A stretch of 64,000 nt of DNA from Actinoplanes derwentensis. GTDB lineage: Bacteria > Actinomycetota > Actinomycetes > Mycobacteriales > Micromonosporaceae. This document shows, piece by piece, positions 8,911-49,774 of the stretch. Below the pieces are notes generated by a model. That model searched no databases. It was given only the letters and a program-made list of their open reading frames with translations, and had not been told where the DNA came from. The position numbers were made by a program, and so were the translations under genes. The DNA is taken from positions 2,418,001 to 2,482,000 of the forward strand of contig NZ_LT629758.1 of assembly GCF_900104725.1 (NCBI RefSeq), written 5' to 3'. Position 1 is the first letter of the stretch, and every line of letters begins with the position of its first letter.

Positions 8911-9534
8911 ATGAGACGTCCGGGAAGAACGCACGAGGTGCGCGTCGGTGAGCTGACGCTGATCTGTCACGTCCACGGGCGTGGGCCGCTGTGCGTCGTG
9001 CATCCGGGCGGCCCGGGGCCGCACGGTGAGTACCTGCGCATCCCGCTGGCCGAGCGCGAGCTGACGATGGCCTATCTCGAACCGGCGGGCAGCGGCTGGT
9101 CCGGCACTCTCGGCACGGACGTCGAACACCTGCACACCGTGATCGAGCGGTTGGGTGGCGACCCGGTCTTCGTTCTCGGTCACGGCCACGGCGGCCTCGT
9201 CGCGCAGAGTTACGCGATGACCCATCCGGGCCGACCAGCGGGCCTGATCCTGTACGGGACGACACCGGTCGCCGTCCGGGCCGTCAACGGCCGTCCGGTA
9301 GGTACTGCCCGGAACCGGCCGATCAGAACCCCCACCCTGATCCTCGCCGGCGCGCACGACGACGTCGCACCGCCCGATGCCGCTGGCGAGTTGCACGCCG
9401 GCATAACGGGGTCCCGGCTGGCCGTGTTCGAACGCAGCGGCCACCTCGCCCACGTGGAGGAAGCCGAACGCTTCGCCCATCTGCTGATCGAGTTCACCCG
9501 CCGGATCTCCGGCCCCTACCGGGCCGCCGGCTGA
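8911..9534 (+). CDS. Alpha/beta hydrolase homologue lacking the nucleophile serine
   Basis: A 207-aa protein. The ATG at 8911 is chosen because AGGAG lies 5 nt upstream. The fold is that of proline-iminopeptidase-like hydrolases: VVHPGGPGPHGEY near the N-terminus, GAHDDVAPPD for the acid strand, and SGHLAHVEEAERF for the histidine. The nucleophile elbow, normally GHSHGG, reads GHGHGG, with Gly92 (codon GGC) where serine is expected. Serine AGC to GGC is a single-base change. The enzyme is therefore probably inactive as a serine hydrolase or repurposed. The rest of the frame is intact, which argues that it is still expressed. It converges on a LuxR gene with a shared hairpin. Confidence 0.8.
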   Translation: MRRPGRTHEVRVGELTLICHVHGRGPLCVVHPGGPGPHGEYLRIPLAERELTMAYLEPAGSGWSGTLGTDVEHLHTVIERLGGDPVFVLGHGHGGLVAQSYAMTHPGRPAGLILYGTTPVAVRAVNGRPVGTARNRPIRTPTLILAGAHDDVAPPDAAGELHAGITGSRLAVFERSGHLAHVEEAERFAHLLIEFTRRISGPYRAAG

Positions 9535-9562
9535 CTGAGCCGGCCCCGGCTCGGTCAGCCGG
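9527..9562. terminator. Bidirectional hairpin overlapping two convergent 3' ends
   Basis: Arms 9527-9543 and 9546-9562 are 17 nt long with one mismatch and a 2-nt gap. The left arm contains the stop codon of the hydrolase gene. The right arm contains the stop and last codons of the LuxR gene. The hairpin can terminate both transcripts. Confidence 0.75.
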
Positions 9563-10208
9563 TCAGATAGCCCAGTTCGATCGCGCGGGCCACCAGCTGG
9601 GTTCGGGTCCCGACGTTCAGTTTCGTCCGGATGTTCCGGGCGTAGGTGTCGGCCGTCGCCACCGCCACTCCCATGCGCTGGCCGATCGCCGGGTTGGTCA
9701 GGCCTTCGGCCAGCATCCTCAGTGCCTCCACCTCGCGGGGGCACAGCCGTGCCGCCTCGTCGCCGGAACCGCCGAGCACCCCGCCGACCAGTCCGGCGCT
9801 GATGTAGACGCTGTCGCGCACCGCGGTGTCCACGGCGACCCACAGATCGTGAGCGGAACCGTCCGGCAGGATCATCGCGCGTACCCCGGCCCGGATCGCC
9901 TCCGGGATCGACGGCGGCTCGTCCGGGCGGCAGACCAGCACAGTGCGAGTACGGGCCGGAACCAGCGACCGCAGACGCCTGTTCAGTACGGCGGTACGCA
10001 ACGTGGTGACGTCCACGATCGCCAGCGACGGGCCGGCCGGTGGTGGTGGGAGCCGGGCCGGTGCCGCGAGTTGATGGGTCACCTGGAGGGCGGGCGTCTG
10101 AGCGGCGAGACGGACCAGCCCGGCACGCATGGTCGCCGACGCCGACACCACGGCGACCGGTACGGGCGTCTTGATCATGCCGGGACCGTATCCGCGGGGA
10201 CTTGACAT
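9555..10208 (-). CDS. Orphan LuxR/NarL-type regulator with degenerate receiver domain
   Basis: A 217-aa protein. The ATG start has a GGAG motif 7 nt upstream. Residues about 15-130 have the alternating strand/helix pattern of a response-regulator receiver (VAVVSASATMRAGL; VLVCRPDEPPS), but the acidic pair after strand 1 is missing. Aspartate phosphorylation is therefore doubtful. Residues about 152-217 form a LuxR/GerE helix-turn-helix (LCPREVEALRMLAEGLTN, then IRTKLNVGTRTQLVARAI). No sensor kinase is adjacent. It likely acts as a DNA-binding regulator controlled by a ligand or by its own level. Its target is unknown. Confidence 0.8.
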   Translation of the reverse strand: MSSPRGYGPGMIKTPVPVAVVSASATMRAGLVRLAAQTPALQVTHQLAAPARLPPPPAGPSLAIVDVTTLRTAVLNRRLRSLVPARTRTVLVCRPDEPPSIPEAIRAGVRAMILPDGSAHDLWVAVDTAVRDSVYISAGLVGGVLGGSGDEAARLCPREVEALRMLAEGLTNPAIGQRMGVAVATADTYARNIRTKLNVGTRTQLVARAIELGYLTG

Positions 10209-12583: not shown

Positions 12584-13024
12584 GTGAAACAGAGATTGAT
12601 GCTCGCCGGTGCTCTGGCGGCCACCGTCACCGCCGCGACGCTCACCGTCGGCGTCCCGGCGAGCGCGACGCCGGCCGGTCCGGGGGTGAGCGGCACGATC
12701 ATCTCGCAGAGGACGATCGGTGACACCGACTACATCCTGCGGGAGATCACCATTCCGGCCGGTCAGGCCACCGGGTGGCACTGGCACACGGGCGAGCTGT
12801 ACGGCCGGGTCAAGCAGGGCACACTGAGTCACTTCGACGCGACCTGCGAGTCCGACGGGGTGTACCGGCGCGGCAGCTTCATCCAGGAGCCGAGCGGCGA
12901 CGGCAACGTGCACATCGGCGTCAACCGCGGCAGCGTCGCGGTGGTCCTCGAGGTTCTGTACGTCCTGCCGGCCGGCTCGCCGCTGTCGGTGGACGCTCCC
13001 AACCCGGGCTGCGACTTCCAGTAG
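12584..13024 (+). CDS. Secreted cupin-domain protein
   Basis: A 146-aa protein starting at GTG 12584, with GAAGGAG at 12571-12577. Residues 1-29 form a Sec signal peptide ending in ASA. The mature part is a single small cupin. ATGWHWHTGELYGRVKQG carries the two histidines and the glutamate of cupin motif 1, and GDGNVHIGVNRG resembles motif 2. Cupins of this sort bind a metal and either catalyse simple reactions or bind small molecules. The C-terminus PAGSPLSVDAPNPGC is shared with the remnant near 7.8 kb. No function can be assigned. Confidence 0.8.
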   Translation: MKQRLMLAGALAATVTAATLTVGVPASATPAGPGVSGTIISQRTIGDTDYILREITIPAGQATGWHWHTGELYGRVKQGTLSHFDATCESDGVYRRGSFIQEPSGDGNVHIGVNRGSVAVVLEVLYVLPAGSPLSVDAPNPGCDFQ

Positions 13025-13327
13025 CGGCCCCCGGAGGCTCGGTCCGGGCCCCGGTCATCACTTGACGGAATCGCTCGCCGGGGAAGTCGACGGACAGTGG
13101 TTGTCAACTCGCCCCTGGTTGACTTCGTCCCGGCGGTGACGGCCCGGAGACAACGTGGTCGCTCCGGGCCGGCCGGCCGCCTGTCCAGACCCCCAGTCGC
13201 CGGACGGGTGGCCCGCCCGACGACGTCCGGTGGCCCGGTGTCTCCCCCGGCCCTGAGCCACCGGACGTTCGTGGCGCGGGCGGTCTCCCTCGCCCCCGGC
13301 GTGCCGATGAACCAGGAGAGATGAAAC
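13025..13327 (+). other. 303-bp upstream region of ketol-acid reductoisomerase
   Basis: No gene is supported here. It contains an inverted pair GTCAAC / GTTGAC (13103-13108 and 13118-13123) and two TTGAC motifs that are not followed at promoter spacing by a clear -10 box. I found no leader peptide rich in Leu/Val/Ile codons and no T-box-like structure. The promoter of the next gene must lie here. Confidence 0.4.
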
Positions 13328-14809
13328 GTGACGACGAACGATCTGGACTTCCGGACCACCGTCTTCGACAAGGAGTACATCACCCTCGCCGGCACCCGCG
13401 AGGGCATCGTGCGGGGTGGGCGGCACCTGTTCGACCGGCTGCCGCAGGCGTTCGAGGGGGTCGATCAGATCGCGGTGATCGGCTGGGGGCCGCAGGGGTC
13501 GGCGCAGGCGCAGAACCTCCGTGACTCGCTCGGCGGGCGGCTCAAGGTGGTGGTCGGCCTGCGGGCGGGCTCGTCATCGTTCGCGGCGGCCCGCGCGGCC
13601 GGATTCTCCGAGGACGACGGGACACTCGGTGAGATGTTCGCGGTGATCGCCGCCTCCGACATGGTTCTGCTACTGATCTCCGACGCCGCGCAGGCCGAGT
13701 TGCACGAGGAGATCTTCGGTGCGCTGCGGCCGGACGCCACCCTCGGGCTGTCGCACGGCTTTCTGCTCGGTTACCTCACGCAGCAGGGCAGCCACTTCCC
13801 CACCGGCCTCGACGTGATCGCGGTCTGTCCCAAGGGGATGGGAGCCTCGGTCCGGGCGCTGTACGTGCAGGGCGCCGAGACCAACGGCGCCGGCATCAAC
13901 GCCAGTTTCGCGGTCGAGCAGAACGTCAGCGGCCGTGCGGTGGAACGCGCGCTGGGCTGGTCGGTCGCCCTCGGCGCTCCCTACACGTTCCGGACGACAC
14001 TGCGTTCGGAGTACCTGTCCGATCTGACCGGTGAGCGGGCCATCCTGCTCGGCGGCGTGCACGGCATCGTGGAGAGTCTGTACCGCCGGTTCGAGGACCA
14101 GGGGATGAGCGCGACCGAGGCGTACCGGCACTCGGTCGACGCCGTCACCGGGCCGATCTCGCGGACCGTCTCCACTGACGGTCTGCTCGGCCTCTACCAG
14201 CGGCTCGACGACGCGGACCGGGAGGTGTTCGCACGGGCGTACGTGGCGGCGTACCCGGTCGGCTTGGAACTGACCCACGAGATCTACGACGAGGTCGACG
14301 CGGGCAACGAGATCCGCAGTGTCATCCTGGCCGGTAAGCGGCTCGCCAGGTTCCCGATGGGCCGGATCGACCGGGCCGAGATGTGGCGGGCCGGCGAGAT
14401 CGCCCGCGAGAGCCGCGACGACAAAGCGCTGCCACTCGACCCGTTCACCGCCGGTGTCTTCTGCGGGGTGATGATGGGGCAGATCGACACGTTCATCGAG
14501 AAGGGTCACCCGTACTCGGAGATCGCCAACGAGTCGGTCATCGAGGCCACCGACTCGCTCAACCCGTACATGCACGCCCGGGGTGTCGCCTACATGGTGG
14601 ACAACTGCTCGACCACGGCACGGCTGGGCTCGCGCAAGTGGGCGCCGCGCTTCGACTACCTGCTGACCCAGACCGCCTATCCGGCCGTCGACCACTCGAC
14701 CAGTGAGCTCGGCGCCGACCTGGTCAAGGCGTTCGAGGAGCATCCGATCCACGAAGTGCTGCGCATCTGCGCGCAGATGCGGCCGCCGGTCGACATCTTC
14801 GTACAGTGA
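13328..14809 (+). CDS. ilvC: Class II (plant-type) ketol-acid reductoisomerase
   Basis: A 493-aa protein with a GTG start and AGGAG about 8 nt upstream. KARI converts 2-acetolactate to 2,3-dihydroxyisovalerate with NADPH and Mg2+ in valine/isoleucine/leucine biosynthesis. The Rossmann loop is VIGWGPQGSAQAQNLRDSL. GLSHGFLLGYL and VIAVCPKGMGASVRALYVQG follow. Metal-site acidic residues come in the duplicated knotted domain (EIRSVILAGKRL; SEIANESVIEATDSLNPYMH). At about 490 residues it is the long class II form. It reads much more like chloroplast enzymes than the roughly 340-aa class I form usual in actinomycetes. No ilvB, ilvN or ilvD neighbours are present, so it may be a second, specialised copy. 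Confidence 0.93.
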   Translation: MTTNDLDFRTTVFDKEYITLAGTREGIVRGGRHLFDRLPQAFEGVDQIAVIGWGPQGSAQAQNLRDSLGGRLKVVVGLRAGSSSFAAARAAGFSEDDGTLGEMFAVIAASDMVLLLISDAAQAELHEEIFGALRPDATLGLSHGFLLGYLTQQGSHFPTGLDVIAVCPKGMGASVRALYVQGAETNGAGINASFAVEQNVSGRAVERALGWSVALGAPYTFRTTLRSEYLSDLTGERAILLGGVHGIVESLYRRFEDQGMSATEAYRHSVDAVTGPISRTVSTDGLLGLYQRLDDADREVFARAYVAAYPVGLELTHEIYDEVDAGNEIRSVILAGKRLARFPMGRIDRAEMWRAGEIARESRDDKALPLDPFTAGVFCGVMMGQIDTFIEKGHPYSEIANESVIEATDSLNPYMHARGVAYMVDNCSTTARLGSRKWAPRFDYLLTQTAYPAVDHSTSELGADLVKAFEEHPIHEVLRICAQMRPPVDIFVQ

Positions 14810-14833
14810 ACGGCTTCCTACGGTGAACGGCGC

Positions 14834-14862
14834 GGCCTCCGGAACCATCGGCTCCGGAGGCC
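14834..14862 (+). terminator. Hairpin terminator after ilvC
   Basis: A perfect 10-bp stem (14834-14843 with 14853-14862) and 9-nt loop, 25 nt beyond the ilvC stop. Confidence 0.7.
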
Positions 14863-16876: not shown

Positions 16877-17311
16877 TCAGCCGACCGCGGCGAGGCCACC
16901 GGTCGTCGCGGCCGGGCCGGCGATCCCGCCCAGTTCGGCGACGGTCAAAGTTCTAGATACTGCGGTACGGGTGATCGCGCCGGACAGTTGGTGCGCGGCT
17001 CGGACCGTGCGGGCCGGCAGGGTCACCGTGAGCCCGGCGATCGCGTCACGCACGTCCTCGGGCACCTCGTACCCACGTCGCACCAGGTACCGGACGGCCA
17101 CCTCGGCGAGTTCCTCATCGGAGTAGCCGGGCATCGTCCACTGCTGCCCGCAGACCTCGGCGACCGCCGGCACCGCGGCCCGCAGCGCGCCGATCGCCGC
17201 CTTCTCCCCCAGCAGCACCACGACCGGGCTGCCCAGCACCGGCCGCATCAGATCGGCGACCCTCAGCCCGGACTCCACGCTGCTGGGCCACATCCGCGAG
17301 CTCCGCCACAC
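16877..17311 (-). pseudogene. C-terminal (lid-domain) fragment of an AAA+ ATPase
   Basis: The region encodes GLRVADLMRPVLGSPVVVLL, then WTMPGYSDEELAEVAVRYLV and GYEVPEDVRDAIAGL. This resembles the small helical lid at the end of CbxX/EccA-type AAA+ ATPases found with type VII secretion genes. No Walker A or B motif is present. Coding-like sequence further upstream (GNPGQLRRRVAELADVAQQ near 17330) is in a different frame. The gene appears to have lost its ATPase core. It stops 17 nt before the YbaB-like start, so it was once in the same operon. Confidence 0.5.
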
Positions 17312-49015: not shown

Positions 49016-49664
49016 TCACTCGGTGAGCAGCGGCGCCAGGCGTCCGGACAGGACTTTCGTCATGCTCGCGCGCACCCCGGCGTCGGTCTTCACCTGGTCA
49101 CGCCAGGCGGTCCAGGTGAACGAGCGGGTCCGGCTGAACACCGCGACCCGGCCGGCGTTCACATCGGCGTGCCGACGGCCGGCGTCGAGGGTGTCGAGGG
49201 CGGTCCGCAGCCGCTGCCAGGCGACCTTGCGGTTCTCGTGCTGGCTGCGGGAGTCGGCGGCGGTGACCACGATCCCGGTCGGCAGGTGGGTCAGCCGGAT
49301 CGCGGTCTCCACCTTGTTGCGGTGCTGACCGCCCGGCCCGGAGTCCCGGTACACGTCCACGCGGACATCCGTCTTCCGCATCTCGCCGGCCGTGGCGTGG
49401 TCACCCGGCTCGGCGGGCAACGCGACGACCACCACTTCGCTGGTGTGGCGCCGGCCGTTCTTCTCCGACGCGGGAACCCGCTGGACACAATGCCGGCCGG
49501 CCAGGGCGGCGTAGGCGGGGTCAAAGCCGGTGAAGCACTACCAGACGGCCCTCACGGGCGGTGGTGACACCGGCGTGGCGGCTCACCGCTGCGGCGAGCT
49601 CATCGGCGAACGCTTCCGCGTCCGCGCCGCCCGCGGTGGCGTGAATCTCGAGTCGGACGAACAT
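49016..49664 (-). CDS. Release-factor-like (GGQ) protein read through a +1 frameshift at CTTTGAC
   Basis: ATG 49664 has GGAGG 8 nt upstream. Frame 0 encodes 47 residues of RF domain 2 (VRLEIHATAGGADAEAFADE, as in VFLEVRAGTGG of RF1) and hits UGA at 49521-49523. A +1 shift at CTT-T-GAC continues as DPAYAALAGRHCVQRVPASE, then GRRHTSEVVVVALP. The GGQ peptidyl-hydrolysis motif SGPGGQHRNKVETAIRLTHL follows, then SQHENRKVAWQRL. The combined product is about 215 aa, the size of PrfH-like factors without domain 1. The codon-recognition tripeptide position reads PAS, closer to RF1's PxT than RF2's SPF. Whether the shift is programmed or a mutation is open; see findings. Confidence 0.7.
49520..49526 (-). 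other. CTTTGAC heptamer: candidate programmed +1 frameshift site
   Basis: On the minus strand the frame-0 codons read CGG CTT TGA C, the same slippery CUU-UGA-C heptamer used in RF2 (prfB) autoregulation. The +1 frame resumes at GAC exactly where RF homology continues. The RF2-style SD-like stimulator 3 nt upstream is not present; the nearest purine run, GAGGGC, ends 21 nt before CTT. Confidence 0.5.
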
Positions 49665-49774
49665 TCCCGGCACCTCCTTCAGTGCTTCACTCCGGGCCCT
49701 TTCCCGGGTGATCCGGAACCCCCGGCCGGTTCACCCGGGCCGGGCGGTCGCCACTCTACGGTCGCCGATGGCCG

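Follow-up and report, generated by a model that had tools for sequence, protein, structure and literature searches.

A conserved CTTTGAC frame break in an RF1-like release-factor paralogue of Actinobacteria and a phage: a candidate spare factor behind a proposed RF2-sensing frameshift

A back-up rescue protein that is made only on failure of the primary system is known in ArfA, which is controlled by tmRNA and recruits RF2. A further system of comparison is the +1 frameshift cassette of prfB, for which the autoregulatory loop of RF2 and its Shine-Dalgarno stimulator are described in the accessible part of an earlier work (PMC5009743). As far as the accessible text of the respective sources goes, all +1 cases with a CUU-stop motif in RECODE are prfB genes (PMC10885494), and a description of the prfB cluster mentions no other release-factor cluster (PMC3711429). 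Likewise, the accessible part of a 2025 survey reports the prfB frameshift as absent in all 2,658 Actinomycetota genomes and found no programmed frameshift in prfA, while shifting at the prfB site amounted to 6.6% in M. smegmatis vs 52.7% in B. subtilis (PMC12421855). Within this partial coverage of the literature, RF2 genes are the only ones with a described CUU-stop +1 cassette, which is read there as RF2 autoregulation.

Here, a split release-factor paralogue of Actinoplanes derwentensis is described, which lies in a window of 64,000 nucleotides (the whole stretch of DNA analysed). It is considered likely that this gene encodes an accessory RF1-like factor whose 215-aa product needs a programmed +1 frameshift at CUU-UGA-C, with the gate sensing RF2. 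The prfB genes of the hosts themselves consist of one open frame in all four genomes compared (G000, A. couchii, A. xinjiangensis and Nostocoides jenkinsii), and in Ornithinimicrobium murale the RF2-like match lies inside a 408-aa open frame.

Layout and conservation of the frame break

The paralogue is encoded on the minus strand, with a full-length read-through product of 215 amino acids and the following features in the window, each given with its basis:

49671..49679, minus strand: Shine-Dalgarno sequence AAGGAGGTG upstream of the start codon (sequence)
49524..49664, minus strand: frame-0 open reading frame, ATG at 49664, encoding the beginning of domain 2 in 47 codons, C-terminus ..LVVLHRL (open reading frame and homologous short open reading frames)
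49538..49540, minus strand: TAG that bounds the +1 frame ahead of the junction (sequence)
49520..49526, minus strand: frameshift heptamer CTT TGA C, with slip codon CTT at 49526-49524 and frame-0 stop TGA at 49523-49521, followed by C (sequence; invariant in six of six family DNA copies)
49019..49522, minus strand: +1-frame part from GAC at 49522, with 168 codons for the remainder of domain 2, the GGQ domain and the C-terminal portion (Pfam RF-1 and Ka/Ks)
49466..49474, minus strand: codon-recognition tripeptide P-A-S at the RF1 PxT position (aligned with PAT of E. coli RF1)
49325..49333, minus strand: GGQ catalytic motif (sequence and alignment with RF1)
49016..49018, minus strand: TGA, terminal stop of the full-length product (sequence)

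This layout confirms what an earlier note on the same DNA had read from it without naming a strand, namely a good ribosome-binding site and an ATG that open a 47-codon frame up to CGG CTT TGA C, and a +1 frame from GAC that carries the rest of the factor. In Pfam, the C-terminal piece matched RF-1 at 1.8e-24 together with the end of PCRF, and the N-terminal piece weakly matched the earlier part of PCRF at 0.0016, which is under the cut-off. Since the +1 frame does not extend upstream beyond the TAG at 49540-49538, the switch of frame is confined to 17 nt. A strong Shine-Dalgarno sequence likewise precedes the copies of A. couchii and A. xinjiangensis, and judged by eye it is weaker in the other three DNA copies.

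By itself, the heptamer is no indication of programming: CTTTGAC was found twice in the window vs 2.42 expected, which is chance level, and the case therefore rests on conservation. The other occurrence lies at 16944-16950 (minus strand), as chance predicts. The earlier note had argued that a rare CTT at the junction is unlikely to be chance; CTT is uncommon, not very rare (71 vs 327 CTC vs 546 CTG in 14 hand-picked long open reading frames), and it is conservation that exceeds chance.

Relatives were collected by scanning public genomes with the +1 piece, with the best 80 of 527 kept. The closest three among them, in A. couchii, A. xinjiangensis and N. jenkinsii, carry CTTTGAC at the matching position, preceded by a frame-0 open reading frame of 47-49 codons and followed by the factor in the +1 frame. 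The corresponding scan of viral contigs (best 80 of 364 kept) yielded one clear member, L132, with the same break on a 53-kb IMG/VR contig; the pattern of the N-terminal piece gave 11 stretches in viral contigs, of which L350, on the contig of L132, is the only member. Within the N. jenkinsii family (186 genomes searched), members occur in N. jenkinsii and in one further genome, taken to be O. murale from the identity of its copy with P0041, which has the same break. When these loci were scanned for CTT directly before any stop codon, with a release-factor signature behind it in the +1 frame, three of the 80 public-genome and one of the 80 viral loci fitted, all of them members already named. 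In the phage and plasmid record collections, the 98 and 128 matching records were all below 60% identity (best 20 of each listed). A scan of viral contigs for the heptamer combined with a distant motif was unspecific and is not counted as evidence.

CTTTGAC and the identical frame break are present in all six DNA copies (window, A. couchii, A. xinjiangensis, N. jenkinsii, O. murale and phage contig), and UGA is followed by C in each of them. In a gapless alignment of the six copies with 201 columns, CTTTGACC forms the longest invariant run with 8 columns, the next longest having 5. Column shuffling, which ignores relatedness, produced a run of at least 8 in 483 of 20000 shuffles and invariance of all seven heptamer columns in 9 of 20000. 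Leu at the junction is encoded by CTT in 6/6 copies vs 5/83 Leu elsewhere in those genes, and Phe by TTT in 6/6 vs 1/19 Phe elsewhere. Both halves are under purifying selection, the Ka/Ks values of seven pairs ranging from 0.10 to 0.60 for the N-terminal and from 0.19 to 0.48 for the C-terminal parts.

Predicted proteins extend the family beyond these copies. A profile built from six frame-0 pieces matched 80 proteins at E up to 10, including proteins from A. xinjiangensis, O. murale, N. jenkinsii, Nocardioides sp. Leaf285 and an Aeromicrobium sp., the last two being known from frame-0 proteins alone. Seventy-seven of the 80 end in Leu (64 RL, 9 CL, 2 WL, 1 GL, 1 SL), the exceptions being P0195, P0198 and P0201. 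Of these, P0195 and P0198 are 58-aa PCRF pieces which possibly belong to another kind of split release factor. On the side of the +1 frame, 30 matches fit the junction pattern among the best 120 of 2558 listed. Twenty-eight +1 pieces read across the junction, leaving out the continuous P0049 and the RF1-like P0079, and show F-D in 25 cases, F-E in two and L-D in one; a frame-0 Leu followed by Phe-Asp in the +1 frame can be coded solely as CTT TGA Y. The deviating junctions of P0030, P0034 and P0063 (L-D or F-E) suggest variant slip sites at the level of the proteins, e.g., UGA followed by a purine. Altogether, dozens of further predicted proteins have a stop at the same position.

A pseudogene, a mutation or a sequencing error is the usual cause of a frame break within a gene. 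Given purifying selection and a break that recurs in five further copies and dozens of predicted proteins, this explanation is refuted for the family and its probability is close to nil. The split is a conserved feature of the family and not an error, and the +1 frameshift is very likely programmed. Regarding homologues, which the earlier note had named as the test, all five other family members seen as DNA share the break and the heptamer, and none of them has a continuous frame, which supports the reading of the earlier note; such a frame does occur in P0049 and L214, which are treated below.

In the databases searched, the halves are entered as separate proteins, mostly named hypothetical or release-factor-like where a name is shown. 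For the coding argument above, two halves could be placed on one contig only by the equal size of their contigs, which gave 10 pairs, with the C-terminal piece crossing the junction in two of them (P0018 and P0026). The separate gene calls would fit two separate proteins, i.e., a split factor whose +1 part starts by internal initiation or reinitiation, and in four of the six copies a possible start codon of the +1 frame does lie ahead of the junction, in a different frame from the N-terminal part. Nevertheless, in the window copy and in N. jenkinsii the first possible +1 start after the closing stop comes only 90 and 234 nt, respectively, behind the junction, past the conserved decoding loop, and independent initiation leaves the invariant heptamer unexplained, which makes two proteins very improbable compared with one product joined by a +1 shift.

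Identity of the joined product

In a single-sequence search against solved structures, the joined protein matched RF1 best (2e-26), followed by RF2 (7.2e-21) and PrfH (9.5e-13). A profile search also ranked RF1 first (2.7e-54; RF2 4.8e-41; PrfH 1.9e-23), with an alignment (A5) that included several RF1 rows, and for this reason the single-sequence search is relied upon. The order in NCBIfam was again RF1, RF2 and PrfH, all below their cut-offs, with the RF1 equivalog at 123.3 bits vs a cut-off of 400. The alignment with E. coli RF1 starts only at residue 113 of the latter, thus domain 1 is missing.

Other release-factor types were considered and rejected. PrfH is ruled out by a score below the cut-off (TIGR03072, 76.3 bits for the joined protein and 75.6 in a six-frame search vs 166.65) and by the separate true PrfH in A. 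couchii and A. xinjiangensis. The window copy is flanked by genes for an F5/8-type C domain protein and a kinase-AAA-GAF-GGDEF protein, so that neither flanking open reading frame of this copy is RtcB. ArfB is ruled out by the presence of the domain 2 parts and by 42.4 bits vs 100 for its model, and RF2 by the tripeptide PAS and a sequence closer to RF1. The RF1-like character of this tripeptide had been pointed out in the earlier note and holds, its PxT position being given by alignment with E. coli RF1.

In the 40 of 61 family rows which cover the site, the third letter of the tripeptide is T in 24, S in 10, N in 4 and G in 2, and the SPF tripeptide of RF2 is absent from all 61, including these 40. 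Most family rows shown continue with GRRH, where RF2 of the hosts has GRRQ and RF1 of the hosts GRIH. Both the relaxed tripeptide and a following motif nearer to that of the hosts' RF2 would be compatible with a factor that reads UGA despite its PxT-type motif, which would create an autoregulatory loop as in prfB. Still, the lack of SPF in all rows and a sequence nearer to RF1 than to RF2 speak against such a loop, and it is regarded as unlikely; judged by its sequence, a factor of this PxT type probably does not itself read UGA.

The fold was predicted for the frame-continuous relative P0049 using alignment A5, with a mean pLDDT of 91.7, and the model matches RF1 and RF2 on ribosomes with a query TM-score of up to 0.83. 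In a tree of 55 rows, with weak support at many of the inner forks and a very long branch leading to PrfH, the family forms one side of a branch with 99/92 support, and P0049 is nested inside. Its continuous frame looks like a secondary loss of the frame break, whereas the equally continuous L214 falls outside the family. As two relatives exist with a continuous frame, the gate is not indispensable. Taken together, the product resembles an accessory class-1 release factor of RF1-like type without domain 1, and it is neither RF2 nor PrfH.

Distribution and genomic surroundings

The gene is rare. It is present in three of 67 genomes of the genus and in three of 354 genomes of the window's family, with the frame-continuous L214 in a fourth genome of the latter. 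Even samples of 394, 396 and 397 genomes contained no member besides the window's own copy, and three other matches in one of these samples were ordinary RF1 with domain 1. These genome searches used a threshold of E <= 1e-44 with few candidates scored per genome, and divergent members may therefore be missed.

The surroundings differ from copy to copy, as the neighbours in A. couchii and A. xinjiangensis are not those of the window copy. In N. jenkinsii, the gene adjoins a DNA methylase, a phage-type exonuclease and a terminase-like open reading frame, and in O. murale it lies near an integrase that adjoins three tRNA genes. The phage contig encodes a clamp loader, a sliding clamp, a methyltransferase and SbcCD-like proteins. 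With one copy on a phage contig and two in prophage-like or integrated-looking regions, the gene looks mobile.

Further observations concern the phage contig (L342) itself. Directly downstream of the release factor, an open reading frame for a polynucleotide-kinase-like phosphatase (9403-9870, minus strand) hints at RNA repair. A phrog_850 protein, annotated as an RNA-binding protein, is encoded at 12934-14595 (minus strand) and is presumably TROVE/Ro-like; beside it, an odd tRNA-like element (14770-14844, minus strand) was left unnamed by ARAGORN. Protein and element may represent a Ro/Y-RNA pair.

The proposed gate and its comparison with known systems

According to the proposed mechanism, ribosomes would initiate well and arrive at the UGA while the tRNA that decodes CUU occupies the P site; termination by RF2 would then yield a 47-aa fragment. 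Slow termination at UGA or a low level of RF2 would instead allow slippage to UUU and reading on as ..LHRL-DPAYAAL... The spare factor would in this way appear when the main one fails, and stalled or slowly terminating ribosomes would be released. As a factor of the PxT type is probably blind to UGA, the gate would act as a sensor of RF2 and not as an autoregulatory loop. By analogy with prfB, slippage of the tRNA at a slow UGA-C is very likely programmed, and the gate would probably report on RF2 and yield a spare factor when UGA termination fails.

The earlier statement that the window copy lacks a Shine-Dalgarno-like stimulator holds: at the prfB spacing, CTTCAC precedes CGG-CTT, and a Shine-Dalgarno-like purine run 3 bases upstream of CTT is absent in five of the six DNA copies. 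The copy of O. murale (L212, 2000-2003, minus strand) does have GGAG three bases upstream of CTT, which is the prfB spacing, and the frame-0 pieces ending in ERL (14 of the 77 that end in Leu) may share this element. Twelve folds of the RNA beside the site gave nothing notable, with z from -1.0 to +2.0. Without such a stimulator in five of six copies and without an outstanding RNA structure, frameshifting may be of modest efficiency, and this would be in keeping with a back-up factor that is scarce and has a strong start site.

The same lack of a stimulator, the strong Shine-Dalgarno sequence of the Actinoplanes copies and the poor shifting of this kind of site in an actinomycete would also agree with a programmed +1 shift that is a mere dose throttle, i.e., a constant low leak that keeps a spare factor of potential toxicity scarce and does not respond to RF2. 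This is rated as rather unlikely, since a weak start codon or Shine-Dalgarno sequence would be a simpler throttle and UGA-C, a context that is specific to RF2 and terminates poorly, is conserved in 6/6 copies. For the RF2-sensing gate, the wider proposition of a mobile RF1-type rescue factor of Actinobacteria and at least one phage, switched on by failing UGA termination via a prfB-style frameshift, is judged to be evenly balanced. If true, it would be a cross-regulated RF2 sensor in a phylum thought to have abandoned the cassette, mostly without the usual Shine-Dalgarno stimulator. That the cassette is conserved in another release factor, both in actinobacteria and in a phage, points to a use that is not limited to RF2 autoregulation. 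A candidate back-up factor is thereby named, with slow UGA termination as a directly testable trigger, and frameshifting by actinobacterial ribosomes can be studied at a natural site.

Compared with prfB, the slip codon CUU, the UGA stop, the following C, the +1 direction and a class-1 release factor as target are shared. In prfB, however, the cassette belongs to an RF2 with SPF, lies at codon 26 in E. coli and is accompanied by an AGGGGG stimulator, whereas the present gene is of PxT type, has its site at codons 47-48 in domain 2, lacks AGGGGG and occurs in Actinomycetota, from which the prfB cassette is reported to be absent in the accessible part of the survey (PMC12421855). RF1 (prfA) provides the closest solved relatives by sequence and fold and shares the PxT-like tripeptide and GGQ; the present protein differs from it in having no domain 1 and a shortened domain 2. 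With PrfH (RFH), it has in common, as far as the accessible literature goes, the character of a class-1 factor without domain 1 and a sporadic distribution. The fail-safe logic of back-up rescue is that of ArfA, with the difference that the gate would here be a frameshift at UGA and not tmRNA.
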